A stretch of 64,000 nt of DNA. Origin: Phaeobacter sp. G2. Its GTDB lineage: Bacteria > Pseudomonadota > Alphaproteobacteria > Rhodobacterales > Rhodobacteraceae. The DNA lies in NCBI GenBank assembly GCA_025163595.1, contig CP104100.1, positions 3,100,001-3,164,000 of the forward strand, read 5' to 3'. The notes beneath the pieces are model-generated. The model was given only the letters and a program-made list of their open reading frames with translations. It made no database searches and had not been told where the DNA came from. Of the stretch, positions 12,457 to 30,122 are shown piece after piece (the stretch's first letter is position 1; the number at the start of each line of letters is the position of its first letter). The translations under genes were made by a program, and so were the position numbers.

Positions 12457-12618
12457 ACAACGCATCTCCAGTTTCTCTATCGCATCCACCATGACAGCTT
12501 CATGCAGGTGTACCAACCTTATTTGTTGAGCTGGATTAGGTAGATGCTGCAGTCGCGTGCTGCCAGGACCCCGCGCCGAACCTCCCTCAACAGGCCGGTA
12601 ACTAGACCGTTCTGCAGG

Positions 12619-15300: not shown

Positions 15301-15371
15301 CACCCTATGGGCGATGCTGACGAAACAAGTTGAAGCAGCGCGGATTACTGTACATTTAGCCCGTCTCCGAG

Positions 15372-15898
15372 ATGGTCTGGGTTCCGCCGCCGAATGGTAA
15401 GCGCGGGCGAACCCAGAGTTTCAGTGATGCGGCGATCCAGGCGGGCCTCAGCCTGAAGGTGCTGTTCGGAATGCCGCTTCGGCAGAGTGAGCCAGTGAAG
15501 GCGCCACGGGTTCGAGCCCACTGGCGAACGGGGGTCGTTCAGAGCCTGTTGCGTTTGCCGGGTCTGGATTGGTCTGCGCCGGATTCCAGCACATTGAGCC
15601 GAGGTCAAAAGACACTGAACGTGAACCTGCCGTATGGTGGTTCCAAGGGCCCACGGAACCTCCTTGTCGACAGCGCGGGGATCAAGGCCGAAGGCGAAGG
15701 CGAGTGGAATGCTCGCAAGCATGGTGGTCCAAAACGTCAGCTCTGGCGCAAGATACACATAGGAATTGACAAAGAAACGCTGGAAGTGCGAGCCGTGGAG
15801 GTAACGACCAGCAGTACCTGTCACAGAACCCGCAGGATAACTCCGTCCGGGGAAAGGGAGAGTCTGTCCTTCAGTCGATTTGCGCAACAAAGCCGCTC
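15372..15898 (+). mobile_element. Degenerate IS5-family element, copy 1 (right end intact)
   Basis: A decayed IS5-family transposase: N-terminal part (Asn-Gly-Lys-Arg-Gly-Arg ... Ala-Ala-Ile-Gln-Ala), a disturbed region, then the Val-Asp-Ser-Ala-Gly-Ile-Lys-Ala-Glu-Gly-Glu-Gly-Glu-Trp catalytic segment with a conserved Asp. After residue about 145 the frame jumps directly into the terminal sequence, so the C-terminal half is deleted. The end carries the terminal inverted repeat GATTTGCGCAACAAAGCC at about 15879-15896. The same last 75 or so bases are found, reverse-complemented, at 28421, on the other side of the polyene-like cluster. Confidence 0.85.
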
Positions 15899-15957
15899 AG
15901 ATCTGTTGGCTGAACTTGAGGGTTGTATTAACGATACTGACCCCGCCAAAGCGGGAC

Positions 15958-16674
15958 TTAGGAACAGCCGCCATCAATGCTGATCTGCTGGCCGGAAATG
16001 AACCCGGCCTTGTCGCTGGCCAGATAGCCGACGAGGGCGGCAACTTCCGCGACCGTGCCGGCGCGGCGTGCTGGCGTCATTTTGACCAATTCGTCGTAGT
16101 TGCTGAGGTTGGTAGTTTCGGCGGTGTCGATCAGCCCCGGGGCCACCACATTGGCGGTGATGCCACGCGAGCCGTATTCCTGGGTCAAGGATTTCATCAG
16201 GGGCAGGAACCCGCCCTTTGCAGCGGCGTAGTTGGTCTGGCCGCGATTGCCGCGCACAGCCGTGAGGGAAGACATCGCAATAATGCGCCCCCATCTGCTG
16301 CGCAGCATTGGCATGATCAGGGGCCGCACCGCAGAGTAAAAGCTTGTCAGATTGAGGTCGATGACATTTTTCCAGTCGTCAAACGCCATCGCGGCAAAGG
16401 GTTTGTCGATTTGCCCACCGACGCAATGCACCACCACCTGTATCGGCCCATCCGCAGCAAGCGCCTCCAGCTGATTGGCGGCCTCGGGGGCCAGAATGTC
16501 CAGCTGCAGAGCCACGGCGCTGCCGCCATTTGCCGTGATGTTGTTCACGCAGGTCTGCGCCTGATCCAGATTTTTGTTCGCATGAACAAAGACATGCATC
16601 CCCATTGCCGCCAACTCACTGCTCACGGCCTGCCCAATCGGGCTGGATCCGCCTACCACCAAGGCCCGCTTCAT
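15958..16674 (-). CDS. 3-oxoacyl-ACP reductase of the polyene-like cluster (ApeQ-type)
   Basis: A 238-residue short-chain dehydrogenase/reductase. The Gly-Gly-Ser-Ser-Pro-Ile-Gly nucleotide loop starts at residue 8, the Ser of the catalytic triad lies at 135-136, and Tyr149 with Lys153 form Tyr-Ala-Ala-Ala-Lys. Length and motifs match FabG. It would reduce the beta-keto group after each condensation. It is the last gene of the minus-strand operon and overlaps the dehydratase gene upstream by four bases, the usual KR/DH coupling of aryl polyene operons. The stop lies about 60 bases from the IS5 end. Confidence 0.88.
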   Translation of the reverse strand: MKRALVVGGSSPIGQAVSSELAAMGMHVFVHANKNLDQAQTCVNNITANGGSAVALQLDILAPEAANQLEALAADGPIQVVVHCVGGQIDKPFAAMAFDDWKNVIDLNLTSFYSAVRPLIMPMLRSRWGRIIAMSSLTAVRGNRGQTNYAAAKGGFLPLMKSLTQEYGSRGITANVVAPGLIDTAETTNLSNYDELVKMTPARRAGTVAEVAALVGYLASDKAGFISGQQISIDGGCS

Positions 16675-17096
16675 TCTGCTTCTCCCTGCATCTTGAGGGT
16701 TGCGCGTCCCTCGATGTATCTCTGCCCCTGAGAGCTGATTTCAAAATCATAAAGGGCACCGTTGCCGTCAAAATGCAGCTGACGGGCCGTGATATGCAGA
16801 TTGTCAGAGCAATCAATCACTGTGGAGGTCAGGAAGTTGACGTTCTGCAGACCAATCAACAGGCCAGTATGGTTGCCTTTCAAATCCCCAATCGAGGCAT
16901 GGGCCGCTGCTGCTTGTGCCCCAAGCTCAACAAGATTGGCGGCGTATAGGATACCGTTTAACCGCAGTGGGTAATCTACCCCACCGTGAGCCACGCCCAG
17001 GCAGTGGATTACCGTGTCGTCGACCGAAATAATCCGTTCAATCAGCCGCATTGCCCCCTTGTGGGGCATGCGTTCCAATACGTCGTCAAAGGTCAC
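16671..17096 (-). CDS. Hotdog-fold dehydratase-like protein (ApeP-type)
   Basis: A 141-residue protein beginning with the Met-Pro-His-Lys-Gly-Ala-Met-Arg-Leu segment (residues 10-18), typical of ApeP and related hotdog dehydratases, and with a central helix in Asn-Leu-Val-Glu-Leu-Gly-Ala-Gln-Ala-Ala-Ala-Ala-His. In known systems ApeP pairs with ApeI to remove water from the 3-hydroxyacyl-ACP. The gene overlaps both neighbours by four bases. His12 is the candidate catalytic residue. The family call rests on the motif and the position between ketosynthase partner and reductase. Confidence 0.8.
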   Translation of the reverse strand: MTFDDVLERMPHKGAMRLIERIISVDDTVIHCLGVAHGGVDYPLRLNGILYAANLVELGAQAAAAHASIGDLKGNHTGLLIGLQNVNFLTSTVIDCSDNLHITARQLHFDGNGALYDFEISSQGQRYIEGRATLKMQGEAE

Positions 17097-17884
17097 AGCA
17101 GGGTCACCTCTAGGTTTAAATTCATCCCACCGTTGAGCCCAAGAGTAACATCTCCTGCGTCTCTTTCGACTAGTTTTTCAAACAGGGGAAGGATGGAAAA
17201 CACCGGGTTCAAGGTTGCAAGCGCTGCTTGGGCATATCTGGTCCGGGGTGGTGTTTCAGCCCGTTGTGCCAGCGAGAAGGCGATGCTGGCAAAGGACTGT
17301 GGGCTTTGTCGGCTGGACAGGGCCAGACCGGCACCAGCGGGGCAGGTCAGGAAATGTGATGTATCAAGCGGTGCAGGCAGCGGCGCATCAAACAGCACCA
17401 CCCCAACAGGGCGCTGTTCAAGCTGCACCTGCAACAGGGCCTTTAGCAGGCTGGATCCTGCGGTATGATCGGCGCCACATATGCTGGTGGCGGCTGTCTT
17501 GATGCTCTGTGCAATGGTCCACTGGCCCGAGGCCGCATTATGCACCGAGTTCTGGAACCGTGTGGGTCGGATTGCCATGGTCGGGCCGCGCAGCGCTTCC
17601 AGGATCAGCTGTAGGGTCTCGCCTTCTCCATAGGCGGAGCCAAAGACCCAGGCGGCATCCTGTGCCAGTGCCGGGGCAATGTTTTCCGCCGCCTGTATCG
17701 CCAGAAGCGTTTGCGGGCTATAGCGCCGACGGGCGCGCGCAGGGATGCTTTCGGGGCTGGGTTTCCAGCTTTCGGGGAAGGTGGTGAAACTGGCGGTCGC
17801 AAGTGATTTCGCCAGGGGCTCGGTATGCTCTTTTGAGGGCGCGATCAGCGAAACGGCATCTACAAAGATCTGTGTCTGGGTCAT
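17093..17884 (-). CDS. Ketosynthase-like partner, chain-length-factor type (ApeC-like)
   Basis: A 263-residue protein starting at 17884, the ATG that overlaps the stop of the ketosynthase gene by four bases. It resembles the beta-ketoacyl synthase N-terminal-like family (PF13723): Arg-Tyr-Ser-Pro-Gln-Thr-Leu, then Phe-Gln-Asn-Ser-Val-His-Asn-Ala-Ala-Ser-Gly. No active-site Cys of the Ser-x-Ala-Cys type is present; the corresponding region reads Ile-Cys-Gly-Ala-Asp-His. It should therefore act as a non-catalytic partner that shapes the chain-length pocket. In aryl polyene systems it forms a heterodimer with the ketosynthase encoded next to it. Confidence 0.78.
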   Translation of the reverse strand: MTQTQIFVDAVSLIAPSKEHTEPLAKSLATASFTTFPESWKPSPESIPARARRRYSPQTLLAIQAAENIAPALAQDAAWVFGSAYGEGETLQLILEALRGPTMAIRPTRFQNSVHNAASGQWTIAQSIKTAATSICGADHTAGSSLLKALLQVQLEQRPVGVVLFDAPLPAPLDTSHFLTCPAGAGLALSSRQSPQSFASIAFSLAQRAETPPRTRYAQAALATLNPVFSILPLFEKLVERDAGDVTLGLNGGMNLNLEVTLL

Positions 17885-19071
17885 CGGCTTAGCACCAATG
17901 CGCAGTTGGAGCCGCCAAAGCCAAATGAGTTGCTGACCACATGTTTCAAAGGTGCGTTGCGGCATTGTGCGGCGACGTTTGGTAGGGCCTTGGGATCCAG
18001 TTTTTCGAGGCCGGGGTTGCCGGGAATGATGCCGTGTTCCAGCGCGTAGAGACACAACACCGCCTCGGCGGCACCAGCGGCGCCCAGGGTATGGCCAATG
18101 GCGCCTTTCAGAGAGGAGGCGGGGACCTGCGCGCCGATCGCAGAGCTGACGGCCTGAGCTTCGGCCGCGTCATTCACAACCGTGGCGGTGCCATGCAGAT
18201 TGACGTAGTCGATATCGCCCGCTGTGAGGCCGGCACGTTGGAGCGCCTGACGGATTGCTGTGGCGGCCCCGGCCCCGTCTTCGGGAGGGGTGGACATATT
18301 GGTTCCATCCGAGCTTTCGCCAAAACCGCTCATCCGGATGCCGTTTTTACTGTCACGTTCGACGATCAAAAAGGCTGCGGCCTCGCCGATGGACAGGCCA
18401 TCACGGTTGCTGTCACAGGGTTTACAGGGGCTGCGTGAGATCAGTTCCAGGGACTCAAACCCATTGAGCGAAGTCAGGCAGAGACTGTCGACACCGCCAA
18501 CCAGCACCGCATCACAAAGACCGGCTTCGATGAGTTGATAGGCGTCAACCAGCGCCTTTGCGGAGGAGGAGCAGGCGGTTGAAATCGAATAGCTTGGACC
18601 CTGGAAATCCAGATAGTCCTGCAGAAAAGCCGCAACAGCCTGTTGGCTGTCATGATGGCGCATCGAATAGCTTTTGGGCATTGGAGCGTCGTCATCCCGC
18701 GCGCGATAAACACGTTCCAGCATCTCAACGCCCGCGGTGGAGGTGCCTATGACGATGCCACAGCGTAGCGCGCCCCATTTTTCCCTCGTTGCCAGTGCAG
18801 CCTGATCAAAGCCATCGCTTCCCAGTGCGGCCAGGGCCAGGCGGTTGGCTCGATTGTCATAGGCGCTCAGCTCAACCGGAAAGCGGAGGTCGGCCAGGTC
18901 ATCAACTTCACCGAGAAAACAACTGAAGGGCAGGTCCAGATGATGCTCTGCGCGCAACCCGGAGGTGCCATTACGCAGCGCCGTCACATGGGCGGCATGT
19001 CCGCGACCCAGGCAGGACACAAGCGTGCTATGGGAAATGCCGATATTATTGGCACCTGGTAAATTCGTCAT
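17881..19071 (-). CDS. Beta-ketoacyl-ACP synthase of the polyene-like cluster (ApeO-type)
   Basis: A 396-residue condensing enzyme with the complete triad: Cys167 in Ser-Thr-Ala-Cys-Ser-Ser-Ser, His293 in Asn-Leu-His-Gly-Thr-Ala-Thr, and His327 in Gly-Ala-Ile-Gly-His-Thr-Leu-Gly. The length matches KAS II/FabF and the ends are intact. It would add two-carbon units to the carrier-bound starter. The start overlaps the exporter gene. It is the only complete ketosynthase in the cluster, which is notable since known aryl polyene loci as I recall them carry two or more. Confidence 0.9.
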   Translation of the reverse strand: MTNLPGANNIGISHSTLVSCLGRGHAAHVTALRNGTSGLRAEHHLDLPFSCFLGEVDDLADLRFPVELSAYDNRANRLALAALGSDGFDQAALATREKWGALRCGIVIGTSTAGVEMLERVYRARDDDAPMPKSYSMRHHDSQQAVAAFLQDYLDFQGPSYSISTACSSSAKALVDAYQLIEAGLCDAVLVGGVDSLCLTSLNGFESLELISRSPCKPCDSNRDGLSIGEAAAFLIVERDSKNGIRMSGFGESSDGTNMSTPPEDGAGAATAIRQALQRAGLTAGDIDYVNLHGTATVVNDAAEAQAVSSAIGAQVPASSLKGAIGHTLGAAGAAEAVLCLYALEHGIIPGNPGLEKLDPKALPNVAAQCRNAPLKHVVSNSFGFGGSNCALVLSR

Positions 19072-21263
19072 AGGTCTTCATTTCGTTTTGTCTGTGCAAG
19101 AGTCAGAAACAGCATCAACATCAATCCCATAGTCACTGTTGCACCTATCTGATGAAGGATCTGAACTTCAGAAAGAGAAAGAACAAGGAAGGCGATCAGG
19201 GTGGATCCCGCGCATACAAAGACTGATCTGGCAGAGGTCTTGCTGTCTTTGTCTCCCTTCATGCCGGTCAGGATGAGATCATAATCCACGCCAATTCCCA
19301 CAACAAGAGCCATAGCGACGATGTGAAAGATGCTGAACGCACCGTAAACCGCGATGATGATGCAGGCGCTGCCGCCCAGAACCGCGCAGCAAGTACGGAA
19401 AATGCGCAGGGCTTCACTCCGGCTGCCCAGTCCAACAGCCAGCACCCCCATACCGCAGAGCAATCCAGCAAGAAGCCAGGAGGCAATGCGATTGCGCAGA
19501 TCTGTCATGGTTTGGCGAATGGGGGCCAGTAGGTCGACCAGCTCAGCGCCTGGGGTGGTGAGGGTCAGATCCAACTGAGAGCTGCCCTGTGGCAAGACCA
19601 GTTCAACCCTTTCCTTCCAGCGCCCCTCTGAGACCGACAGCCGCCTGGCCAAGCCCTGCAATTCCGGAAACCTGCTCAGGTCTTCCGGCTGCAGGCCTGG
19701 GGCCAGGAGGGCGCGTTCAAACGCAAGGGTCTGTTGCTCGGCAAAGGCGACGGCCATGCCTGCCTGCTCCAGTGCCAGTTCTGCCTCGGCTTGGAAGTCG
19801 GAAACTGAGCTGTGAAGGGCGCGCGAGGGGGAGAGCCATTGAGAGAGCATCTGATACGAGTGCAAATCCCCGTCTTCGATAGCCTGATCCAATTTCGCTG
19901 CCAGTTGCACCTCGTTTTCAAGCAGCGCGCTGAGCGTTTCGCCCTCTACGTCGATGGCATATGTGCTGGAGGGCAGGACCAGTTTTTGGTTCAATTCCGC
20001 CAGCTCTGTGCGGATGTGCTCTGGCGGTTCAAAGAGAGTGATGGGGGGTGGTTGATTAAACAGTACCACTGTGACGAGCCCAGCCCCAATGAGCGTGGCC
20101 TCGATCCAGGCCTTGGCAGGCAGGTAAAAGCCAAAGGCGCTGAGCGCGACGCCGCGTATTTCCGCCCTTTTGGGCACGGGCATCACGACGGAGGCAATGG
20201 CGGCGACGGACAGCCCGACCAGGATAAAGACCCCGGCTTGAACCAATGCGGGAACCTGTGTGCCAACCATGGCCAAAAACGAAAGCCCGGTGGTGGCAGC
20301 GCCCAGCAGGATCAGCCTATTGGCCTTGCTGCGGCGACTGCCATGATGGGCCATGACATGGATCGGATAGTCCAGTGCCAGCCCCAAAAGAACGCCACCA
20401 AAGGCCAGGGCCAGAATATGCACCGAGCCAAATGCCAGATTGACCACGCCAATGGCTGCGGCCACTCCCAGGGCGAGGGGGAGAAAGGTATGCACCACCA
20501 AGACCACCGAGCGCAGTGACCAGATCAGCCAAATCACCAAAAGCAGGCTGGCGATAGTTGAGGCGCGCGCCGAGGCTGTGGAGTTGAACTGGGTGGTCTC
20601 TGCGGCGATCACCCGGACCCCTAGCAGATGCGCCGTCATCCCCTCATGAGCAGCAAGGTCACGCAGTGCCGATGACCAATCCTGTAGCGCCTGGGCGTCA
20701 AAGGGGAACTGTACCAAGCGGATATGCAGAATTGCTGCGGAGTTATCATTGGATTGCCAAACGCCGTTTACAACCGGGAAGGCGTCTCCGGGGCTCTCAA
20801 ACCGCTTTATGATGCGCCAATAGCTTCCTGTTGGATCCCGCAGGAAACGGTCCCCAAACACAATGCTGGCCGCATCGGAAAAATAGTCTTTTGCCTCTAC
20901 GAGCCGCCGAACCATGCCCGGGCTCTCCAGATCCGACTGTGCTGGCGGGGCCAGCTTGAGCCGGTTTTCCCAGACCCAGCTGTCAAATTCTTCCGAGGGG
21001 GCCGGCGTGGTGACAAGAACCTCATCGACCAAAGGGTCTTGCCTCAGGTGGTGTGCAATTGCTTTTGCTGCTCTGTTGCGCTGGGAGACCTGCGGGTGGC
21101 TGAGCGCGACAAGCACATCCAGCCCGGTACCATCGGTGAGAGAGGGGAGGCCGGCATTGTCCCCGACGGTCAGGGCCTCGGTGTCAGAGCTGATCGTGAC
21201 CCAGGGCGCCAAGAGCAACACCAGTCCGATCAGACCCAGAACAGCCAAGGTAATCCGCGTCAT
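19068..21263 (-). CDS. MMPL/RND-type membrane exporter
   Basis: A 731-residue integral membrane protein with the RND layout: one N-terminal helix, a large periplasmic domain, five helices near residues 235-350, a second periplasmic domain, and five helices near the C-terminus. Blocks such as Gly-Leu-Ala-Leu-Asp-Tyr-Pro-Ile-His (first half) and Gly-Val-Asp-Tyr-Asp-Leu (second half) hold the acidic residues expected for proton-driven transport. Similar MMPL proteins export hydrophobic lipid-linked products in aryl polyene, xanthomonadin and hopanoid systems. It overlaps its neighbours by four bases on each side. Confidence 0.88.
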   Translation of the reverse strand: MTRITLAVLGLIGLVLLLAPWVTISSDTEALTVGDNAGLPSLTDGTGLDVLVALSHPQVSQRNRAAKAIAHHLRQDPLVDEVLVTTPAPSEEFDSWVWENRLKLAPPAQSDLESPGMVRRLVEAKDYFSDAASIVFGDRFLRDPTGSYWRIIKRFESPGDAFPVVNGVWQSNDNSAAILHIRLVQFPFDAQALQDWSSALRDLAAHEGMTAHLLGVRVIAAETTQFNSTASARASTIASLLLVIWLIWSLRSVVLVVHTFLPLALGVAAAIGVVNLAFGSVHILALAFGGVLLGLALDYPIHVMAHHGSRRSKANRLILLGAATTGLSFLAMVGTQVPALVQAGVFILVGLSVAAIASVVMPVPKRAEIRGVALSAFGFYLPAKAWIEATLIGAGLVTVVLFNQPPPITLFEPPEHIRTELAELNQKLVLPSSTYAIDVEGETLSALLENEVQLAAKLDQAIEDGDLHSYQMLSQWLSPSRALHSSVSDFQAEAELALEQAGMAVAFAEQQTLAFERALLAPGLQPEDLSRFPELQGLARRLSVSEGRWKERVELVLPQGSSQLDLTLTTPGAELVDLLAPIRQTMTDLRNRIASWLLAGLLCGMGVLAVGLGSRSEALRIFRTCCAVLGGSACIIIAVYGAFSIFHIVAMALVVGIGVDYDLILTGMKGDKDSKTSARSVFVCAGSTLIAFLVLSLSEVQILHQIGATVTMGLMLMLFLTLAQTKRNEDL

Positions 21264-21841
21264 TGCGACACAAACCTGATTTGACGGTTTTGATTGCCTG
21301 CCATTTCAAGGTCGATGGCCTGCAAGGTCTCACCACAGCCGGAAAAGACAATGCTGCCGCCGCCATTTTGGCGCAGCGAAATGCGGGCGGTCCAACCCGT
21401 TGATGTGGATGTAATCTTATGGGGCAGCGGCGGCAGCTCAGAAATGCCCTGATTGAACACTGCCGCTTGCAGGACAGTGAAAAACGCATGCATGCGTTTG
21501 GGAATTGCGCGGGTGATCTCTGTTCCGTCACGCTGGATGGTGATGGTCTTGGCGCCGATTGTCATCTCTTCTGCTTTGGGCGTGATTTGCCGCCGCACCA
21601 GGGATTTATCGCGGGTCAGGACAAAGACACCGCCATTTTGGACTGCAGTGCCAAAGGCCGGATGTACAATGGTTTCCACGTAGGCCACTGAGCCGTCCAC
21701 AGAAATGGGCTCTGCCCTCAAGGCGAGCTCCAGCGTTGCAGGGGCCGGCTGCGAGCAGCTTGGCTCAGCGGCGCCAGATATCGAAGAAGTTGAACCAGTT
21801 ATAAGGATCGACGCGACACCAGCCTTCAAGAGCCTTTGCAT
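21260..21841 (-). CDS. LolA-like periplasmic carrier protein
   Basis: The ATG at 21841 gives a 193-residue protein with a signal peptide (Met-Gln-Arg-Leu-Leu-Lys, then a hydrophobic run ending near Ala-Ala-Glu). The mature part has the beta-strand spacing seen in LolA-like proteins of aryl polyene loci, where it is thought to move lipid-linked polyene across the periplasm after the MMPL exporter. The start lies inside the end of the acyltransferase gene, and the stop overlaps the exporter start, so all three are coupled. The LolA-like assignment relies partly on position. Confidence 0.68.
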   Translation of the reverse strand: MQRLLKAGVASILITGSTSSISGAAEPSCSQPAPATLELALRAEPISVDGSVAYVETIVHPAFGTAVQNGGVFVLTRDKSLVRRQITPKAEEMTIGAKTITIQRDGTEITRAIPKRMHAFFTVLQAAVFNQGISELPPLPHKITSTSTGWTARISLRQNGGGSIVFSGCGETLQAIDLEMAGNQNRQIRFVSQ

Positions 21842-22694
21842 AGTCCTGCGCCATATGTGCAGCGGCTTCAGCGCGCTCGGGTCGTGGCACAGGCGCCCCA
21901 TCATAGAACTGTGTGAATTCAGCGGCATAGTGGTCTCTGGATTCCCATCTGGCGAAACTAAGGATAATTGGAACCCTGGCTGCCATTGCAGTCAGGTAGG
22001 GGGATAGGGGCACTTCTATATCATCGCCCAGAAATGAGACATCCTGTTTTGCACGTACAGTCGCATCGGGCAGCCGATCCCCCAGAATAGCCACAAACTC
22101 GCCGCGGCTCAGGGCATCAGAGACCTGGATCATCGCCATGGGGCCATTTTCCAAAGCGATGATCTTTTCACTGACGTCCGGGTTGATGCCCTCCAAAATG
22201 CCGGTGCTTTTGCTGGCGTGTTGCGTGAACATCATATAGCGAACGGACAGGCCTGGAAGTTCACGATCCAACGCTCTGAGGGCTTCAAAACTACCGTAAT
22301 GCGCGCCCAGCAACACGGCCCCTTTGCCCTGGTTTACAAGGTCTTGAATAGGCTCCGCACCGCGCGTCGACACGGTAAACTGCTCAACCCCGCGCCCCAA
22401 CAACCGCACCCGGTCAAAGAAGGCATGACTGAAAGTCCTGGCGTGCCGCATGCGTTCCAATAGCGTTGGTGCGCGGCCCAGAATGCGGGTGAGAAAGGCG
22501 ATCGAGGCTCGGGTGCTCAACCGTCGTTTGTCGATCGCAAAGACCAATGCAATACCCCAGAGCAGGGGCACGTATATCAGGCTTGGGGGTCTGCTTGCCA
22601 GTAGCCGCATGAATTTCAACTGCCACAAAGACCCAGATTCCCTGGCTTTGGTCCAGCCAGTCGCCTGGTCCACCCCGGTTTCTTGCTCAGCCAT
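21765..22694 (-). CDS. LpxL/HtrB-like lysophospholipid acyltransferase
   Basis: A 309-residue acyltransferase of the lipid A lauroyl/myristoyl transferase family. The His-x4-Glu-like catalytic pair lies in Gly-Ala-His-Tyr-Gly-Ser-Phe-Glu, followed by Arg-Tyr-Met-Met-Phe and Gly-Asp-Arg-Leu-Pro. An N-terminal hydrophobic helix (about residues 40-55) would anchor it in the inner membrane. In aryl polyene clusters such enzymes are believed to attach the polyene, or a fatty chain, to a lipid backbone. It is translated from a start overlapping the preceding hotdog gene by eight bases. Confidence 0.82.
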   Translation of the reverse strand: MAEQETGVDQATGWTKARESGSLWQLKFMRLLASRPPSLIYVPLLWGIALVFAIDKRRLSTRASIAFLTRILGRAPTLLERMRHARTFSHAFFDRVRLLGRGVEQFTVSTRGAEPIQDLVNQGKGAVLLGAHYGSFEALRALDRELPGLSVRYMMFTQHASKSTGILEGINPDVSEKIIALENGPMAMIQVSDALSRGEFVAILGDRLPDATVRAKQDVSFLGDDIEVPLSPYLTAMAARVPIILSFARWESRDHYAAEFTQFYDGAPVPRPERAEAAAHMAQDYAKALEGWCRVDPYNWFNFFDIWRR

Positions 22695-22989
22695 TGGTCG
22701 GCCGCAGTTCTACCCGCGCATTTGCCAGGGTTTCTGTCCCTGAGATCCACGCAAGTTTCGCAAGGGTGCCCCCTGCCCCTATTTCCAAGGTGATTTCATA
22801 CGGCTGATCTGGGATGAGTTGGCGCAGAAACTTCATGCGTTGAACGCATTTAATCTCATATCCGATGTCGCGTAAGGCCTGTTCGGCCAGCCCCAACAGA
22901 ACCGCCCCGGGAACAATTGGGTTCCCGGGGAAATGGCCGTCCAGGCACCTGGACTTGGGATCAACGCCCTCTGATCTGATCAGCTGCAC
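22687..22989 (-). CDS. Hotdog-fold 3-hydroxyacyl-ACP dehydratase (ApeI/FabZ-like)
   Basis: About 100 residues. The signature Asp-Gly-His-Phe-Pro-Gly-Asn-Pro-Ile-Val-Pro-Gly is the FabA/FabZ active-site strand with the catalytic His. The protein is shorter than FabZ, like ApeI subunits. The start is uncertain: GGAGG stands seven bases before a GTG at 22989, while a TTG two codons upstream (22995) is closer to the GGAGG. The GTG is preferred. It should act with the ApeP-like protein encoded in the same operon. Confidence 0.78.
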   Translation of the reverse strand: MQLIRSEGVDPKSRCLDGHFPGNPIVPGAVLLGLAEQALRDIGYEIKCVQRMKFLRQLIPDQPYEITLEIGAGGTLAKLAWISGTETLANARVELRPTNG

Positions 22990-23032
22990 AGCCAAGCCTC
23001 CGAGCAGATGTGCCGGATCGGATAGTTGGGGG

Positions 23033-23434
23033 TTACTTTAGGCAAAAGATCACATCGTTGGTCAGGTTTTCGATCCAGCTGTTGTAGCGTTTGTGGATGG
23101 TGTTCTTTTCGGCGTCGAATTTCATGTTCTTTGAGTCTCTGTAAGAGATCTTGAAGGCCTGGCTGCTGTATTCAACGTCAACTTCAACATAATGTTTGCC
23201 GCGCACCGTCAGTTGGCCGATCAACTTGCCTTGTGCGACACGGCTGAACTTCCAGCCACGTGCCGAGCTGCAGGTTTTAAGGGCATTCTCCACACCACGG
23301 ATCGTGGTGTTCTTTGATGTCACTTCGCTGAGCTGAACATAGGACGTCCGGACTTTCTGCAGAGCCGCCGCGGTTGTCGCTGTCAGCGGTTGCAGGGCAA
23401 GGGCGCCCAGGAAGGCATAGGTCAAAAGTTTCAT
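23033..23434 (-). CDS. Secreted hypothetical protein of the polyene-like cluster
   Basis: A 133-residue protein with a clean signal peptide (Met-Lys-Leu-Leu-Thr-Tyr ... Ala-Thr-Thr-Ala-Ala-Ala). The mature part is basic and rich in Lys, Ser and Tyr, with two Cys (Cys in Lys-Thr-Cys-Ser-Ser, and a C-terminal Phe-Cys-Leu-Lys) that could form a disulfide. I do not recognise a family. It sits in the operon between the glycosyltransferase and the dehydratase genes, and overlaps the former by four bases, so it very likely belongs to the pathway, perhaps as a periplasmic or outer-membrane accessory. Confidence 0.72.
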   Translation of the reverse strand: MKLLTYAFLGALALQPLTATTAAALQKVRTSYVQLSEVTSKNTTIRGVENALKTCSSARGWKFSRVAQGKLIGQLTVRGKHYVEVDVEYSSQAFKISYRDSKNMKFDAEKNTIHKRYNSWIENLTNDVIFCLK

Positions 23435-24189
23435 TTCGTCTCTCCTCGATTATGTTTCTGGTCAATAAGTCCCAAGGCCTTCAAAAAGCCCATTGGGCGC
23501 AGGCCTCTAAGAAGTAGAAATTCGGTGACGAGCCCAAACAGCCGCATGAAGTCACGCAGGGGGTCAAAGTGGCTTGGGCGCAGGACAAAGCCCTCATAGC
23601 GGGCTTTCAGGGGCACGTATTCAAAGGGAATTCCCTTCTCCGCAGCATAGAGCAGTGCGGCGGTTTCAAATTTGAACCCCCCAATATGGCGCCTGGGAAT
23701 GTCCAGCCGCTTCAATGCGGTCGCGGGGTAGAGCCGCATGCCACATTGGGCGTCCTTGATCCGGCGGCCGCAGGCCCAGCCAATAAAGAAGTTGCCAAAT
23801 TTGATGCCTTTGCGGCGGGACCCGGGCATGTTTTCCATATCGGCAGAGCGATCCCCCATGACAATGGCCAGGGGATTATCCTGATGCTGCGCCAGAAATT
23901 TGGGGATATCCGCAGGGTCGTGCTGCATATCAGCATCCAGCACGATCACTGCCGTTGCACCTTTGTCCAGTGCCGACTGGAAGCCTTCGACCAGGCGATC
24001 CCCCTTGCCCAGGTTGATCTCGTGACGCAGCACAGTAGCTCCGGTATTGGATAAGGAGCCCGCCGTGCCATCCGTTGATCCATCATCGACCACAATGACC
24101 TTGTCCACCAAAGGGATGGTTTCCTCGACCACCTGCCGAACGGTCAGGATCTCGTTGTGTGCCGGGATCAGAGCAAAAGGACTGGCCAT
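23431..24189 (-). CDS. Family 2 glycosyltransferase
   Basis: A 252-residue GT2 protein. The nucleotide-sugar site begins with Ile-Pro-Ala-His-Asn-Glu, followed by Val-Val-Asp-Asp-Gly-Ser-Thr-Asp-Gly-Thr, and the metal-binding Asp-x-Asp lies in Val-Leu-Asp-Ala-Asp-Met-Gln-His-Asp-Pro. The C-terminal part lacks clear multiple transmembrane helices, so it is of the short, DPM1-like type. GT2 enzymes are regular members of aryl polyene clusters and may glycosylate or link the lipid head group. The start is well placed after the methyltransferase gene, 16 bases apart. Confidence 0.86.
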   Translation of the reverse strand: MASPFALIPAHNEILTVRQVVEETIPLVDKVIVVDDGSTDGTAGSLSNTGATVLRHEINLGKGDRLVEGFQSALDKGATAVIVLDADMQHDPADIPKFLAQHQDNPLAIVMGDRSADMENMPGSRRKGIKFGNFFIGWACGRRIKDAQCGMRLYPATALKRLDIPRRHIGGFKFETAALLYAAEKGIPFEYVPLKARYEGFVLRPSHFDPLRDFMRLFGLVTEFLLLRGLRPMGFLKALGLIDQKHNRGETK

Positions 24190-24205
24190 GAGGGATCAGC
24201 GTCCG

Positions 24206-24940
24206 TTATCGGCGCGCGACATATTCGGAAAAACAGCCCAGCAACGAGTTGTGCTCGACCGTTGTGAACCCGGCTTTGCGCAGGCTGTCCAATACGTTTT
24301 CTATTGGTACCATCTGATCCATGGATTCCCAGTAATAGCGCATCAGACGAAACACATTGCGGTCTCTGGTCAGGATCATCGCCACTGTCGGCAGGATATG
24401 CTTGAAGTAGAGGCGGAACAGGGCCTTGGGAATGGCTTTTTCTGGTACTGTCACATCCATGATCAGCACCTTGCCGCCGTCTTTCAGAACCCGGTGATAT
24501 TCAGTGAAACTGTCATCTAGGCTGTCCACATGACGCAGGGCAAACCCCATGGTCAGAAAGTCGAAGCTTTGGTTTTCAACGGGCAGTTTTTCTGCTGTGG
24601 ACTGGTGAAAAGTGACCGGAACACGTTTCTTGGCCTCTGCGATCATGCCGGCCGAGGGTTCAACGCATTCAATCTGTTTGGGGTCATCCAGAATGGTCAT
24701 CAGCGCCCGTGCCACCTGACCGGTGCCGGTGGCAACATCAAGCACCCGCATCTCGGAGGTCACACCATTGCGGCGCAGGGCCTCGCGGCGATACCAGTCG
24801 CCAGAGCCGAACCAGCCCCATTTTGCGATGGCCTCATAGTTTTTAGCAGTGTCGTCAAACACCTGACGCAGGAAGGCCTGCTTTTCTGCGTGTGACTCGT
24901 AATACTCACCAACTACGATTGGTTTGTTGCCGTCGGACAT
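24206..24940 (-). CDS. SAM-dependent methyltransferase (UbiE/COQ5-like)
   Basis: About 244 residues from an ATG at 24940 (an in-frame start at 24973 adds 11). The SAM-binding motif I is Val-Leu-Asp-Val-Ala-Thr-Gly-Thr-Gly-Gln-Val-Ala, with Glu in the Cys-Val-Glu-Pro-Ser segment (motif II) and Phe-Asp-Phe-Leu-Thr-Met-Gly (motif III). The family includes UbiE and the methyltransferases that modify the aryl head of polyene pigments. It is the first gene of the long leftward operon, so its promoter is in the 24941-25147 interval shared with the divergent plsC-like gene. Confidence 0.84.
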   Translation of the reverse strand: MSDGNKPIVVGEYYESHAEKQAFLRQVFDDTAKNYEAIAKWGWFGSGDWYRREALRRNGVTSEMRVLDVATGTGQVARALMTILDDPKQIECVEPSAGMIAEAKKRVPVTFHQSTAEKLPVENQSFDFLTMGFALRHVDSLDDSFTEYHRVLKDGGKVLIMDVTVPEKAIPKALFRLYFKHILPTVAMILTRDRNVFRLMRYYWESMDQMVPIENVLDSLRKAGFTTVEHNSLLGCFSEYVARR

Positions 24941-25147
24941 TGATAAGACCTTGTCGCCTAGATATTCGGCCAAAACTCTCGAATCAGATCCTTGGCTCTT
25001 CAGCGCAACTTATACCAGTAGAGAAATCAAGCCTGCCAGCCCTGCAAGGTGCTAAACCTACACGGCGCAGTGGTTTTAAAAGGTGTTTGTTGCGTTACAT
25101 TCGACGTGTATAGACGGTTTTGCCCTCGTACCAAGCTGATGGAAGTC
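24941..25147. promoter_or_regulatory. Divergent promoter region of the polyene-like cluster
   Basis: A 207-base interval between the leftward methyltransferase operon and the rightward acyltransferase gene. It is AT-richer than its flanks. I could not assign convincing boxes by eye, and no long palindrome was found, so only its position argues for promoter activity. Confidence 0.45.
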
Positions 25148-25924
25148 ATGAATACCTTTGCCCACGAAGAAAACGTTCAGTCAAAACGGCTTTTGCCATA
25201 TTTAGCTGCCTGGCTAAGAACCCGTGTCTATGAAGCCTTCGTTTTCCTGGTCAGTATTACAGCAGGCGCCTGCATCATTTTTTACCTGCATTGGCGGCCA
25301 ACGCCGGTATTGGTGCGCCGATTGCTTCGGTTTTGGTCATGTGGGTATATTTATGGTGCCAAATACATCCTTGGGGTGACTTACAAGATCGAAGGTCGGG
25401 AACACATTCCCGCTGGGCCTGTGATCTATATGGGCAATCACCTTACCGCCTGGGAATCTGTGATGATGACGGTGCTGGTGCCCCATGTGAACATGGTGAC
25501 CAAGCGCGCTGCTATGTCTATTCCGGTGTTCGGTTGGGGTTTGAAACATGCGCCAATGACCCCCATTGATCCCGAGACCCCAGGCAAGAACATCCGCCGC
25601 CTGTTGAAAGAGGGTAAGGCCTCGATCCGCGAAGGTAGGAGTATGGTCATTTTTCCAGAAGGGTCCCGCGTTCCCATCGGAGAAACCCGCCCCTACGCGC
25701 GTGGGTTTGAGATCCTGTACAAACACTGCGGTGTGCCGGTTGTGCCTTTTGTGACGGATTCAGGTCTTCATTGGCCATCGGGCTACGCGACAAAACCACC
25801 CGCAGTGATTACGTTGCGGTTTCTGCCGCCCATCGAAGCGGGCAAAAACCCAAATGAATTTGCAGCAGAGCTGGAAGAAAGCGTTCGCACGGAGGCGGCA
25901 AAACTGATGGCTCCGCAGGTATAA
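25148..25924 (+). CDS. PlsC-type 1-acyl-glycerol-3-phosphate acyltransferase homologue
   Basis: A 258-residue membrane acyltransferase. It has a hydrophobic N-terminal segment (about residues 27-47) and the catalytic block Gly-Asn-His-Leu-Thr-Ala-Trp-Glu-Ser, which has the spacing of the family motif but Glu in place of the usual Asp. Phe-Pro-Glu-Gly-Ser-Arg follows. The start at 25148 is preferred, with an in-frame ATG at 25139 also possible. It is transcribed opposite to the rest of the cluster. It may acylate the lipid that carries the polyene. The Asp-to-Glu exchange is unusual but is seen in some relatives. Confidence 0.8.
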   Translation: MNTFAHEENVQSKRLLPYLAAWLRTRVYEAFVFLVSITAGACIIFYLHWRPTPVLVRRLLRFWSCGYIYGAKYILGVTYKIEGREHIPAGPVIYMGNHLTAWESVMMTVLVPHVNMVTKRAAMSIPVFGWGLKHAPMTPIDPETPGKNIRRLLKEGKASIREGRSMVIFPEGSRVPIGETRPYARGFEILYKHCGVPVVPFVTDSGLHWPSGYATKPPAVITLRFLPPIEAGKNPNEFAAELEESVRTEAAKLMAPQV

Positions 25925-25974
25925 GCCTGCGAGCCAAAATTCGCGGACCTGAGCCAAAGCGCACAGAGAGCGGG

Positions 25975-27321
25975 CTAGCTCTGCAATCCGGCTTTTTTCA
26001 ACAGTTCTAGCGTTGTTGCGCGGGTGATCTTTCCGGTAGCAGAGCGGGGAATTTCGGGTAAAAATAACAGCTTTTTAGGAACAAAGGCTGCATCGAGATG
26101 GCGCAAGAGGTGGCGGCGCACCAGGCTGCGTATCTCAGACTCTGACAGGGAACTGTCCAGAGGCGGCACCACTGCTATGGCCAGGGCATCGGTCTCGCTG
26201 CGCTTGTCGTGCAGGAAAACCCCATCGGATATTTCGGAAACCTCCGAAAGGATCGCATTCAAGGCCGCAAGCCTGTTCCGCTTTCCTCGCACGCTCACCA
26301 TGTCGCCGGCGCGGCCAAGCAGGGTAAAGCGCCCATCGGGATGTTGCTCGATCTCGTCTTCCAGCGCGATAGGTTCTGGCAGATGCGGTGCAGAGGCCAG
26401 GCAGATGGCCTGCGCCTTTTTCAGCTCAAACCCAGCCGAGAGGCTCCAAGCCTGTTCATGTGCGGTTTGTCGCAGCGCCATGGAGCCGGTCTCGGTGCTG
26501 CCATATATCTCCATGACCTTCAGGTTTTCTCTGCGGGCCAGTTTCTGAGCCAGCGCCTGAGGGAAGGGCGCTGTGGCGGAGAGCACGCAGATGATTTCCG
26601 GTGCGGCCAAAATGGCAGCCTCAAGAAACCGCAGATGTGCAGGGCTGGTGATCAGTACAAGTTTGGAAATTCCGCAGGCGCGCGCCGCCTCAACCGCCGC
26701 TTCCAGGTCGGCGGGATAAAAAATGGTGTCCCGATAGGTCGCATGACCAAAACCAAGCGTGGCAAAGATTGTGGCTTCCAGCCCGTACATATGACCATGC
26801 GGCGTGGTGCCCAGCAGGCCGACCTCTGATGGGGACGCATCCAGATCCTGAATGATCTGATCGGTTATCGCCGCACCGCCGCGTAGCATCTTCCAGGTTT
26901 TGACGTTACATTTTGGCTGCTTGGTCGAGCCTGAGCTATAAACGCGAATTTCTGTGGAACTGTCTTGCAGCAGTGTTGCAAAGTCCCGAACCTCTACCTG
27001 TCCGGGCTGCGCAGCTTCAAACGACAGGCGGGGTGCAAGCGCGTCATGATCTGCGTTGGTGCTCAGAATGACTGGGGCGGGCGCATCGGAAATCGCGGAG
27101 CGGATCGCCTCTGGTGCCAGCGAAGGCGGCAGGACAATCGTTTGTTTGTTCAACAACCCGGCGACAATGCCGAGGGAGAATTGGTAGCGATCCTGAAACA
27201 GGTTGCAGATCGATCCCGCCCCCTGCACCTGACCGCGCAGGGCAGCAATATCGGTGACAAATTGCTTTTGATCAATAGTGCCATCTTTTGAAAAGAACAG
27301 GTTTCTGTCTGCTGCATACAT
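25975..27321 (-). CDS. Adenylating acyl/aryl-ACP or CoA ligase (ApeH-like)
   Basis: A 448-residue ANL-superfamily adenylating enzyme. The ATP-binding loop is Tyr-Ser-Ser-Gly-Ser-Thr-Lys-Gln-Pro-Lys; Tyr-Gly-Ser-Thr-Glu-Thr-Gly-Ser is the central motif; and the C-terminal Lys is in Arg-Ser-Ala-Thr-Gly-Lys-Ile. It is shorter than acyl-CoA synthetases (about 500 to 600 residues), as in aryl-starter ligases of polyene pathways, which load 4-hydroxybenzoate or a related aromatic acid onto the carrier protein. It follows the carrier and membrane-protein genes in one operon. The substrate is inferred. Confidence 0.8.
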   Translation of the reverse strand: MYAADRNLFFSKDGTIDQKQFVTDIAALRGQVQGAGSICNLFQDRYQFSLGIVAGLLNKQTIVLPPSLAPEAIRSAISDAPAPVILSTNADHDALAPRLSFEAAQPGQVEVRDFATLLQDSSTEIRVYSSGSTKQPKCNVKTWKMLRGGAAITDQIIQDLDASPSEVGLLGTTPHGHMYGLEATIFATLGFGHATYRDTIFYPADLEAAVEAARACGISKLVLITSPAHLRFLEAAILAAPEIICVLSATAPFPQALAQKLARRENLKVMEIYGSTETGSMALRQTAHEQAWSLSAGFELKKAQAICLASAPHLPEPIALEDEIEQHPDGRFTLLGRAGDMVSVRGKRNRLAALNAILSEVSEISDGVFLHDKRSETDALAIAVVPPLDSSLSESEIRSLVRRHLLRHLDAAFVPKKLLFLPEIPRSATGKITRATTLELLKKAGLQS

Positions 27322-27323
27322 GT

Positions 27324-27962
27324 TCAGATGTCCAATTTCTTCCAGGTATCACGCTGCATTATCAATGATATAGAGCGCTGCCAGGTTTCCGGCCGTTTAA
27401 ACCGAAGGCGGGCAATTTCATGAGATATGACAAACCACAGCACCTGAGCAACCAGAAGCGTGACCAATATCACGCTAGCAAGGGGGCGCAGGGGTTCACT
27501 CCCAAGGGCCAGTAGGCCCAAACCAGCGCAAAACAGACCGACGCCCAGCCAGACCCCGCATTGCCGCCTTAGGTAGGCCGTGAACTCTGCAGATGGGTTT
27601 GGTCCTAGATGAGCGGCGGTGACGAACTGGAGCAAAACGCTGGGCTGCCCGCGCAGTAGATTGTGGCCAAAGACATAGGCCATGCTCAGATTGATTGCGA
27701 TGACGGCGAGATAGGGCACAAATTGCAGCTCTGGCTTCAAGAACGCCAGGAGCACCCCCAAGGTCCCCCCGATCCTCAGCAGGATTAGTCTGGCCCATTG
27801 AAGGCCGCAGACATCACGCAAGAACAGCGAAAAGACATGCAGGGTGAACAGAATGAAGACAGCATTCAGCAGAGGCGAAGCGAACAGCCAGCAGGAGACG
27901 AGCAAGGCACCCGTGACGGCCGCCCTCAGATGAGGAGGCCAGCCTGCTGGATTTAGGCTCAC
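27324..27962 (-). CDS. Multi-pass membrane protein (COG4648-like, ApeG position)
   Basis: A 212-residue membrane protein with about five to six hydrophobic helices and short loops. It starts with a GTG that overlaps the carrier-protein stop by four bases (GTGA), so coupling is clear; the ATG at 28007 would overlap further. Proteins of this kind sit next to the carrier and ligase genes in aryl polyene loci; the activity is unknown. A possible role is in membrane placement of the starter unit, but that is inference. Confidence 0.75.
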   Translation of the reverse strand: MSLNPAGWPPHLRAAVTGALLVSCWLFASPLLNAVFILFTLHVFSLFLRDVCGLQWARLILLRIGGTLGVLLAFLKPELQFVPYLAVIAINLSMAYVFGHNLLRGQPSVLLQFVTAAHLGPNPSAEFTAYLRRQCGVWLGVGLFCAGLGLLALGSEPLRPLASVILVTLLVAQVLWFVISHEIARLRFKRPETWQRSISLIMQRDTWKKLDI

Positions 27963-28252
27963 GTCTTGCGGTTTTCCGCGATGTGACTGGAAAGAGCACG
28001 CACGCAAGAGAAGATCTCTTCGTTACGCTCATCATCGGAGCGCAGTTTGAAGCCATAGGTCTCGCTGATGGCAAAGGCGATTTCCAGGGCGTCGATGGAG
28101 TCAAGCCCAAGCCCCTCACCGAACAAAGGAGCATCAAAATCGATTTCCGCAGCAGTCACGTCATCCAGAACCAAAGCCTTCACAATCAATTCAGCGACTT
28201 CAATCTGTAGCTTTTCAAAATCGCCCTGATCTGCAAGTTGGGTTACTGACAT
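27959..28252 (-). CDS. Acyl carrier protein of the polyene-like cluster
   Basis: A 97-residue carrier protein with the phosphopantetheine attachment site Gly-Leu-Asp-Ser-Ile-Asp-Ala-Leu-Glu, Ser52. A GGAG ribosome binding site precedes the ATG at 28252 closely; an in-frame ATG at 28273 adds seven residues. The remainder is acidic and helical as expected. It holds the growing chain during elongation. It is the first gene of the operon, with the IS5 end only about 170 bases upstream of its start. It is the only carrier protein seen in the cluster. Confidence 0.93.
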   Translation of the reverse strand: MSVTQLADQGDFEKLQIEVAELIVKALVLDDVTAAEIDFDAPLFGEGLGLDSIDALEIAFAISETYGFKLRSDDERNEEIFSCVRALSSHIAENRKT

Positions 28253-28420
28253 GTCTGCTCCATTTTTTGGCACTGCCCCGAAGCAGATTTCGCTACGGCC
28301 TGTTTAGTGGCAATTTATTATCTGCCGGGAACTGTTCCGTCTAGCCAGAAATGGGGCGAGTTTATTCGCTATCATGCACAATCACCAGACGAGTAACCTG
28401 GAGGCTTAGTGAAGTGGCCC

Positions 28421-28895
28421 GGCTTTGTTGCGCAAATCGTCTGAAGGACAGACTCCCCCTTTCCCAGGACGGAGTTATCCTGGGGGCTCTGTGACAGGTT
28501 TGCCAAGAGCGGTGTAGCGGTTCAATACGGCGATCCGGATTTGGATCTCAGCGATCTATCGCTCGAAGTCTCGGGCCATCAAGGATTGGTCCAATTGCTT
28601 CACACAGTGCATCTTGGTCTCGACGCGGCTCCTGCGGTGATATCCGCTGCATCGCTTCCAAATGGTTCGATCGAGGTAGCGCGAGGCATCCACTGCATCG
28701 TTCCGAGCGATGGCTCCGGCCGGGGTGGGTTGCCGCGGTTTGGCGTTCTTGCGTGGTGGTAGGACAGCATGGGCACCACGAGCGGCACTCGCGTCATGGC
28801 ATTTCTTTGTCAATTCCTATGTGTATCTTGCGCCAGAGCCGACGTTTTGGACCACCCTGCTTGCGAGCCTTCCACTCGCCTTCGCCTTCGGCCTT
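28421..28895 (-). mobile_element. Degenerate IS5-family element, copy 2
   Basis: On the minus strand this reads the Lys-Ala-Glu-Gly-Glu-Gly-Glu-Trp catalytic segment, then a deletion and frame change, then the transposase C-terminus (Pro-Pro-Arg-Lys-Asn-Ala-Lys-Pro, Tyr-His-Arg-Arg-Ser-Arg-Val-Glu-Thr-Lys-Met-His-Cys, Ser-Leu-Met-Ala-Arg-Asp). The terminal repeat GGCTTTGTTGCGCAAATCG is at 28421-28439. The last 80 bases are nearly the same as the end of copy 1 in opposite orientation. The N-terminal half of the gene is missing: similarity stops abruptly at about 28895 where other coding sequence begins. Confidence 0.85.
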
Positions 28896-29187
28896 GAGCC
28901 GGGAGCTTGCGCCGTCGCGTAGGACTGCAGGTCTGCTCAAGCAGCTGCGGGAAATCCTTTTTCTCGAACACGTCGACGATCCTGGTCGGGTTGAATCAGG
29001 GTTCTTCGCGGCCATTGACCCCGCCGATCCGGTCGTCGAGGATATCTGCCTGCTGGCGGAGGGTCTGGCCCAAGCATTGCGCAACTCTCCGACCGTCTCG
29101 GGACTTCTTGGCTGTTCGATTGATGTCAATGGCACACAAGGTCCTCATTACAGCGTCGAAGCCCAAAAAATGGGAGACCTGAAATGA
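28896..29187 (+). pseudogene. 3' fragment of a gene cut by the IS5 element
   Basis: An open frame with coding character begins at the IS boundary and ends with a TGA that overlaps the next start (ATGA). About 90 residues remain, with an Arg-Glu-Ile-Leu-Phe-Leu-Glu-His-Val-Asp-Asp segment and a helical Ala/Leu-rich centre. The N-terminus is lost. I do not recognise the family. The coupling to the downstream gene suggests a former two-gene operon. Confidence 0.5.
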
Positions 29188-30035: not shown

Positions 30036-30122
30036 TGGTGCCCAGGAGAGGACTCGAACCTCCACATCGTTGCCAATACTAGCACCTGAAGCTAGCGCGT
30101 CTACCAATTCCGCCACCTGGGC
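30036..30122 (-). tRNA. tRNA-Leu (anticodon CAG)
   Basis: Read on the minus strand the gene begins GCCCAGG and ends CCTGGGC, A, CCA, so the seven-bp acceptor stem is perfect and the CCA is encoded. The anticodon loop is TTCAGGT, giving CAG for CUG codons. A long variable arm, as expected for leucine, follows the anticodon stem. Its 3' end points to lower coordinates, toward the IS-rich island. Confidence 0.95.

Follow-up and report, generated by a model that had tools for sequence, protein, structure and literature searches.

Aryl polyenes are yellow protective pigments. One of the closest described gene sets, the arc genes of Azoarcus BH72 as listed in Table 1 of PMC3949708, comprises a ketosynthase (KS; ArcK), a partial KS (ArcJ), dehydratases (DH; ArcI and ArcS), a reductase (ArcH), a glycosyltransferase (GT; ArcE), acyltransferases (ArcD and ArcR), a chorismatase (ArcB), a halogenase (ArcA), a methyltransferase (ArcM), an exporter (ArcP), a LolA protein (ArcQ), an AMP ligase (ArcT), ArcU and an acyl carrier protein (ACP; ArcV). 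According to passages of the same paper, the chorismatase homologue ArcB makes 3- and 4-hydroxybenzoic acid (3-HBA and 4-HBA), and ArcT adenylates 3-HBA and 4-position benzoates (PMC3949708). For the E. coli ape pathway, passages of PMC8253772 give a predicted start from 4-HBA, a ubiquinone intermediate. Here, a related locus was analysed in a stretch of 64,000 nucleotides from Phaeobacter sp. G2 (contig CP104100.1, positions 3,100,001 to 3,164,000; hereafter the window, in whose numbering coordinates are given). The host belongs to Pseudophaeobacter, and the second genome of its species (G010) is a Pseudophaeobacter metagenome-assembled genome. Judging from its genes, the fifteen-gene block at 15958-28252 is likely to be an island of the xanthomonadin/arcuflavin (xan/arc) type that makes and exports an aryl polyene; it would still be working after the loss of its chorismatase gene.

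The aryl polyene class, proposed in a first-pass annotation of the window, was supported by a hidden Markov model check, in which the KS passed NF006618/PRK09185 (441 bits, cut-off 407) and the ACP passed NF006617/PRK09184 (115.6 bits, cut-off 70). The solved structures nearest to the KS were 7f28_B (239 bits) and 6qsp_A (229 bits), the next one scoring 156 bits. A profile of nine chain-length factors (CLF) returned three solved structures in all, with 7f28_A and 6qsp_B at the top; the CLF is thus placed nearest to ApeC chains by structure matches, the tree having been built for the KS only. Entry 7F28 is presumably the ApeO-ApeC pair of Acinetobacter baumannii. Entry 6QSP is the ApeO-ApeC pair of Xenorhabdus doucetiae (passages of PMC8358021). 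Grouping of the KS with housekeeping FabF had been named as the outcome that would speak against the assignment. In a midpoint-rooted tree of 36 KS rows, which took in only part of the best 80 CLF loci described below and has a long FabB branch, the window KS lay in a 30-row ApeO-type clade (support 100/100) with the E. coli and Pseudoalteromonas ApeO, and not with E. coli FabF, E. coli FabB or two KS paralogs of its own genome, all of which fell outside. Within an 11-row subclade (support 96/93), it was accompanied by Rhodobacterales rows, nine with its own, and two other alphaproteobacterial rows. The tree leaves out two ApeR proteins and three KS-like places of the window genome (L139, L140 and L141), and a Xanthomonas sacchari KS (L010, 33%) was unused, its neighbourhood being of a different kind. 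A housekeeping FabF or fatty-acid pathway is rejected by the KS tree. We conclude that the sequence comparisons support an aryl polyene cluster with a KS and CLF closest to the ApeO-ApeC pair.

All fifteen open reading frames (ORFs) were found at or near the places first given for them, in the three units claimed: eleven genes on the minus strand (15958-24940), a single plus-strand gene (25139-25924) and a minus-strand trio (25975-28252). The catalytic residues of KS, reductase and ACP were likewise borne out. Pfam matches above curated cut-offs were obtained for the KS, the CLF (Ketoacyl-synt_2), the FabG-type short-chain dehydrogenase/reductase (SDR), MMPL, GT2, the UbiE-like methyltransferase, the PlsC-type acyltransferase, the AMP-binding ligase and the PP-binding ACP. 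The LpxL-like acyltransferase and both dehydratases scored under their cut-offs, the latter being recognised through profile comparison only; the LolA-like protein had zero Pfam matches, and neither the small secreted protein nor the membrane protein matched a family over cut-off. The hallmarks of aryl polyene clusters are present, namely an ApeO-type KS with a shortened ApeC-type CLF, a dedicated ligase with a starter ACP, a FabG-type ketoreductase (KR), two hotdog dehydratases, and a set of proteins for lipid attachment and export (acyltransferases, GT2, MMPL and LolA-like proteins). The genes and the remnants that flank them are as follows (P, hhalign).

15352-15894, plus strand: decayed IS5-type (DDE_Tnp_1_5) remnant; its terminal GGCTTTGTTGCGCAAATC end lies directly against what remains of the chorismatase gene
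15895-15956, plus strand: what is left (the 3' end, ~20 codons) of a chorismatase gene of the FkbO/Hyg5/XanB2 type, which three sister species have at full length
15958-16674, minus strand: KR, FabG-type SDR at the ApeQ/ArcH position (PF13561 155 bits; NF009466 223.8 bits, cut-off 222; Tyr149/Lys153)
16671-17096, minus strand: hotdog dehydratase DH2, ApeP position (PF22817, ApeP-like, 15.3 bits, under the cut-off of 27; P 99.1 to the Azospirillum and 93.8 to the Pseudoalteromonas counterpart)
17093-17881, minus strand: CLF partner, ApeC type, shortened, lacking the KS cysteine by alignment (PF13723 80 bits; 7f28_A, 6qsp_B); start unsure, the frame being open upstream to 18055
17881-19071, minus strand: KS, ApeO type (NF006618, structures and tree as above; Cys167/His293/His327)
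19068-21263, minus strand: MMPL/RND-type exporter, ApeM/ArcP position (PF03176 32.2 bits; P 99.1 to the Pseudoalteromonas counterpart)
21260-21841, minus strand: LolA-related periplasmic protein, ORF extendable to 21928 (P 97.6 to an annotated Azospirillum LolA-related protein)
21765-22694, minus strand: LpxL-like lysophospholipid acyltransferase (LPLAT) (PF03279, Lip_A_acyltrans, 21.4 bits, just below the cut-off of 22.3; P 99.9 to a Pseudoalteromonas acyltransferase)
22687-22995, minus strand: hotdog dehydratase DH1, ApeI position (PF07977, FabA-like, weak at 17.7 bits, cut-off 23; P 96.8 to the E. coli and 94.7 to the Pseudoalteromonas counterpart)
23033-23434, minus strand: small protein with a secretory-looking N-terminus, related to the product of the first gene in the E. 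coli ape locus (L007:6305-6694; P 99.3, E 8e-21, 32% identity)
23431-24189, minus strand: GT2 glycosyltransferase; together with the enzyme at 21765-22694 it corresponds to ApeJ in split form (PF00535 74.8 bits; P 99.5 to the Pseudoalteromonas GT2)
24206-24940, minus strand: UbiE-like SAM methyltransferase, likely for head-group methylation (PF01209 108.9 bits; P 100 to the Azospirillum counterpart)
25139-25924, plus strand: PlsC-type acyltransferase, ApeD position, single-gene unit (PF01553 61.2 bits; P 97.4 to the E. coli counterpart); start unsure, a GTG at 25049 being possible
25975-27321, minus strand: adenylating acyl-ACP ligase, ApeH/ArcT position (PF00501 40 bits; P 99.8 to the Pseudoalteromonas ligase)
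27324-28007, minus strand: membrane protein, ApeG/ArcU position by gene order, start unsure
27959-28252, minus strand: ACP of the starter (ApeE/ACP1) type by NF006617 (P 99.5 to Pseudoalteromonas ACP1 vs 83.7 to ACP2; Ser52, counted from the ATG at 28252)
28420-28907, minus strand: another decayed copy, in inverted orientation, of the IS5-type element seen at 15352-15894, lying immediately beyond the shared block (repeats I1, 109 nt, 93%, and I2, 80 nt, 94%)

The truncated chorismatase tells more than any other part of the cluster. In three sister species (G001, G008 and G004), which probably include Pseudophaeobacter arcticus, a chorismatase of ~350 residues is encoded convergent with, and adjoining, fabG. 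When this sister protein (L021:7057-8115) was searched by tblastn, its sole significant window match was 15894-15953 (residues 333-352, 80% identity, E 8e-5), and blastn of the remnant against L021 gave 84% over 58 nt (E 4e-14). The gene breaks off exactly at the end of the IS5-type remnant, and the identical junction occurs in G010. The left remnant carries Pfam matches to PF13737/PF01609 (15372-15983) and matches 28420-28907 in inverted orientation; the two inverted insertion-sequence (IS) remnants (15352-15894 and 28420-28907) might together form a composite transposon, but both copies are decayed. Beside the left remnant lies a decayed IS110-like transposase fragment with in-frame stops (14908-15340, identity by eye). 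Past the right one stands a tRNA-Leu (CAG) gene (30036-30122), a possible integration landmark, and between the two are a pair of short ORFs on the plus strand that matched nothing in Pfam (28753-29609).

The sister chorismatase scored well over the cut-off of 27 bits against PF21168 (FkbO/Hyg5-like; 80.7 bits in G001, 78.3 bits in G008), its nearest solved relative was PDB 5ag3 (180.9 bits), and by analogy it could make a 3- or 4-hydroxybenzoate starter. A second loss in G004, hinted at by a '1 TGA' flag in its gene, was dismissed, as the alignment runs stop-free over residues 1-349 and the family search is stop-free as well. No other chorismatase copy was detected in the window genome (G000) or G010 by whole-genome protein and family searches. 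The family search found the enzyme in 4 of 16 genomes, the three sisters and G398, which has a diverged copy at the opposite end of its cluster; all four also have the cluster, and none of the seven genus genomes without PF13723, the CLF family, has a chorismatase. Genomes with PF13723 but no chorismatase were G000, G010, G015, G349 and G535. The chorismatase therefore goes with the cluster in this genus, not everywhere in the KS subclade, and the remnant itself together with this co-occurrence indicates that it belonged to the genus's cluster.

Counting the window genome each time, PF13723 occurred in 5 of the 12 genus genomes, in 4 of 394 family genomes and in 3 of 390 from an order sample that overlaps the family one. 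By tblastn, all fifteen genes were matched in unchanged order in the three sister species, and all fifteen in three other genera of the family, where the ACP-membrane protein-ligase block has moved; an Azospirillum plasmid and a Roseomonas plasmid each matched 12 of the 15 (unmatched: the LolA, membrane and secreted proteins). The fifteen-gene matches in sisters and other genera show that this is not a chance collection. DNA common to the three sisters runs from 15892-15894 to 28329-28371, with no window match in the flanks examined; since the shared DNA stops at the cluster edges, the unit is the cluster itself, which from these alignments appears to have moved as a block. Elsewhere in the window, AstE/AspA-like, RimK-like and ATP-dependent zinc protease-like genes stand in a row on the minus strand (10056-12516).

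A CLF-profile scan of named genomes yielded at least 581 confirmed stretches, the best 80 of which were examined by gene content at chosen bit-score thresholds; by their record titles these 80 lie in Alpha-, Beta- and Gammaproteobacteria. Within the stretch examined, a KS was present in 76 of them, a ligase in 61, an LPLAT in 62, a chorismatase in 20 (G008 being one), a halogenase-like flavoenzyme in 23 and an ammonia-lyase in none; the counts for the 49 loci of at least 20 kb were 49, 48, 48, 16, 20 and 0. The halogenase-like gene (tryptophan-halogenase-like) lies between fabG and the ACP gene in the three other genera (L023:6697-8040, L024:11329-12621, L025:6935-8242); G015, G349 and G398 have it beside the ACP gene. 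The Pseudophaeobacter genomes searched gave only weak partial matches to it, none at the cluster. The locus had been thought unusual for its lineage. The case for this is weaker than claimed, since Azospirillum, Roseomonas, Acidocella, Acetobacter and Bombella have such loci too; within this family the locus is still rare. Calls of 'aryl polyene' by antiSMASH in Alphaproteobacteria are already published (passages of PMC8262860 and PMC11426391). One such survey counted 7 arylpolyene clusters over 15 genomes, Pseudophaeobacter sp. EL27 among them; an antiSMASH call in this genus may thus already be in print, the passages giving no strain assignment (PMC6316421). The PMC literature searched yielded no description of the cluster in this genus, the PMC6316421 survey being unresolved by strain, and no paper pairing aryl polyenes with a chorismatase.

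Between G000 and G010, 117 synonymous and 43 nonsynonymous changes were counted over the fifteen genes (Nei-Gojobori; ratio of nonsynonymous to synonymous rates, dN/dS, 0.120), and no stops were present in the aligned parts of all 15 (444 of 449 codons aligned for the ligase). Against the chorismatase-keeping sisters, the cluster dN/dS was 0.136 (G008), 0.135 (G001) and 0.109 (G004); a stop in the G008 GT2 gene is only a gene end five codons earlier. A neutral split of the changes was rejected at p ~5e-37 in a rough test on rounded values. Because G000 and G010 share the truncation, the changes in the cluster should be younger than it, barring transfer of the junction by recombination, and purifying selection despite the shared loss argues that the pathway still runs on another aromatic acid. 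From this substitution pattern we conclude that the pathway probably still runs, with another starter source, and is not a relic. The contrary explanation, that loss of the chorismatase ended pigment synthesis in the window species and left a dead or dying remainder, draws on the truncation with no second copy found, on the failure to find any other known hydroxybenzoate-forming enzyme in the genome and on the decayed IS copies at both ends. It is unlikely, since a dead cluster would not be expected to hold dN/dS at this level over 15 genes in two genomes that share the loss, their aligned parts free of stops and gaps, and we reject it on that ground; G015 and G349, whose clusters were read, and G535, of which only the CLF family is known, are likewise without a chorismatase.

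From the identities of the genes, we infer the following course for a working pathway. The ligase would load a hydroxybenzoate onto the single ACP, and the KS-CLF pair, the FabG-type KR and the two hotdog dehydratases would elongate it iteratively to a conjugated aryl polyene, whose head group the UbiE-like enzyme may methylate. LPLAT, the PlsC-type enzyme and GT2 would attach the chain to a lipid or sugar anchor, and the MMPL, LolA-like and small secreted proteins would carry it to the outer membrane. In the ancestral unit of the genus, the chorismatase beside fabG would have made the starter from chorismate, until an IS5-type element took away the gene except for its 3' end, an event that seems to predate the split of the two sampled strains. 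The pathway most likely now runs on hydroxybenzoate from elsewhere, either 4-HBA of the ubiquinone pathway or 3- or 4-HBA taken up from outside. In Xanthomonas, 3-HBA is a diffusible factor, and 3-HBA from outside can feed XanB2 mutants. The substrate range of ArcT and the predicted 4-HBA start of the E. coli pathway make a starter switch chemically plausible. We tentatively suggest, at somewhat short of even confidence, that the species made such a switch after the chorismatase was removed, its ligase drawing on ubiquinone-pool 4-HBA or on hydroxybenzoate that its neighbours release. The genus has ubiquinone-10 as its main quinone (passages of PMC4127530); UbiC (PF04345) was found in none of 11 genomes searched, the window genome and ten relatives, and PF01947 in none of six. 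The 4-HBA source of the genus was accordingly not found, although ubiquinone-10 is made. An ammonia-lyase starter is rejected, as no PF00221 match is linked to the cluster.

Several observations weigh against a xan/arc-type pathway that has outlived its chorismatase. The aryl polyene product is deduced here from genes alone. No FkbO/Hyg5 homolog, UbiC or PF01947 member was found in the window genome, leaving it with no known hydroxybenzoate source found, and its single PF00221 ammonia-lyase match is on another contig (C6), not at the cluster. The exact product of the sister chorismatase cannot be told, because its TIGR04444 scores (240 bits in G001, 242 bits in G008) lie under the cut-off of 325. 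Nor does every member of the KS subclade have the enzyme: it is missing genome-wide from G015 and G349 as well as from the window species, and four further rows (L052-L055) showed none within the 17-21 kb examined. Five neighbouring control genes gave a dN/dS of 0.175 between G000 and G010, on only 31 changes and with one gene alone at 1.6, and recombination carrying the junction between strains could weaken the timing argument. By hhalign, the ApeG counterpart was unconfirmed (P 10-26 to ApeG-position proteins), the LolA-like protein reached only P 2.4 against the Pseudoalteromonas ApeL counterpart, matching the Azospirillum and Roseomonas counterparts only, and the methyltransferase only P 15.9 against that of the E. 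coli ape locus. The yellow colour of P. arcticus, taken up below, is a correlation only.

The locus might also be of flexirubin or E. coli type, fed by an ammonia-lyase or by 4-HBA, with a second ACP and a second KS encoded elsewhere. In its favour, passages of PMC8253772 predict that 4-HBA from ubiquinone synthesis feeds the E. coli pathway and list no chorismatase among its genes; the small secreted protein is also matched by the product of the gene that comes first in that locus. However, Pseudoalteromonas queries (E 1e-4) for the second ACP (ApeF), the thioesterase ApeK, the DUF3261 protein ApeN and an ammonia-lyase found no match in window positions 9001-38000, and the single match of the ApeR query was the window KS, with no second KS in the window. 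Only one of the six KS-like places in the genome lies in the window, no ammonia-lyase is linked to the cluster, and the sisters carry a chorismatase instead. With second ACP, thioesterase and DUF3261 not found, an E. coli-type ape locus is rejected, and we hold this alternative to be very improbable; of the label "xanthomonadin/flexirubin-related" given in the first-pass annotation, the likeness to xanthomonadin and arcuflavin stands, and that to flexirubin or to the E. coli/Vibrio type does not. Equally hard to credit is a non-aryl lipid, such as a polyunsaturated or ladderane-like acyl chain made by a FabF-like type II system, for which one may cite ligase, ACP and KS families common to lipid pathways, weak hotdog matches by family model and the lack of a starter source found in the genome, but against which stand a KS and CLF closest to ApeO and ApeC and a chorismatase that adjoins fabG in three sisters and recurs in the best 80 CLF loci as counted above.

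The locus extends the pigment clusters of xanthomonadin/arcuflavin type to a marine roseobacter genus. P. arcticus DSM 23566T forms yellow colonies, a colour recorded without an assigned pigment in passages of PMC4127530 and PMC3910698, and the cluster is a possible cause of it. Sister species with and without the chorismatase offer a ready natural experiment on the origin of the aryl starter. If the starter was indeed switched, pigment head groups would be expected to differ between the sister species; alternatively, the window species would colour only in company or near phenolic matter.

Among the known systems, the ape loci of E. coli CFT073, X. doucetiae and A. baumannii share with the window the ApeO-ApeC pair, ligase, starter ACP, two dehydratases, reductase, acyltransferase, exporter and a related small first-gene product. 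They differ in the methyltransferase, and counterparts of ApeF, ApeR, ApeK and ApeN were not found at the window, so that the expected likeness to the E. coli locus held for the core and the first-gene product and not for these four. A CFT073 stretch (L005, 1095000-1140000) showed no ape genes and gave no match to window genes. The in-cluster ammonia-lyase starter gene of flexirubin loci was not found at the window. The plasmid loci of Azospirillum ramasamyi and Roseomonas haemaphysalidis share the core order ACP-membrane-ligase-DH-LPLAT-LolA-MMPL-(others)-KS-CLF-DH-FabG, at 44-45% identity for the KS and 26-35% for the CLF; they carry halogenase-like, deacetylase and MipA genes and had no chorismatase match in the stretch examined. 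The xan/pig genes of Xanthomonas, likened here by description only, resemble the window in a KS with an unusual CLF, ketoreductase, dehydratase and acyltransferase; Xanthomonas also has the chorismate-using enzyme XanB2 (passages of PMC3949708). Its product is brominated, whereas no halogenase-like gene was found at the window. The arc set is alike in one KS with a partial-KS partner, one ACP, an AMP ligase, two dehydratases, a reductase, two acyltransferases, a GT, LolA, an exporter, a methyltransferase and a hypothetical protein between ACP and ligase. In Azoarcus, the arc genes are distributed over two loci and include a halogenase, a polysaccharide deacetylase, an MltA-interacting protein, an antiporter, the ArcF reductase and regulators, alongside a separate resorcinol pathway. 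Queries for halogenase-like, deacetylase and MipA genes gave no match around the window cluster; the antiporter, ArcF, ArcL and regulators stood outside this comparison. Compared with arc, the window lacks a halogenase, keeps the chorismatase as a remnant only and has the small secreted protein in addition. The plan of known aryl polyene pathways, to which the cluster had been matched, is thus preserved in class and core, the set being incomplete in the window species through the truncated chorismatase. With its single KS and single ACP, the gene set is by sequence comparison nearest to the arcuflavin/xanthomonadin type rather than to the E. coli type.

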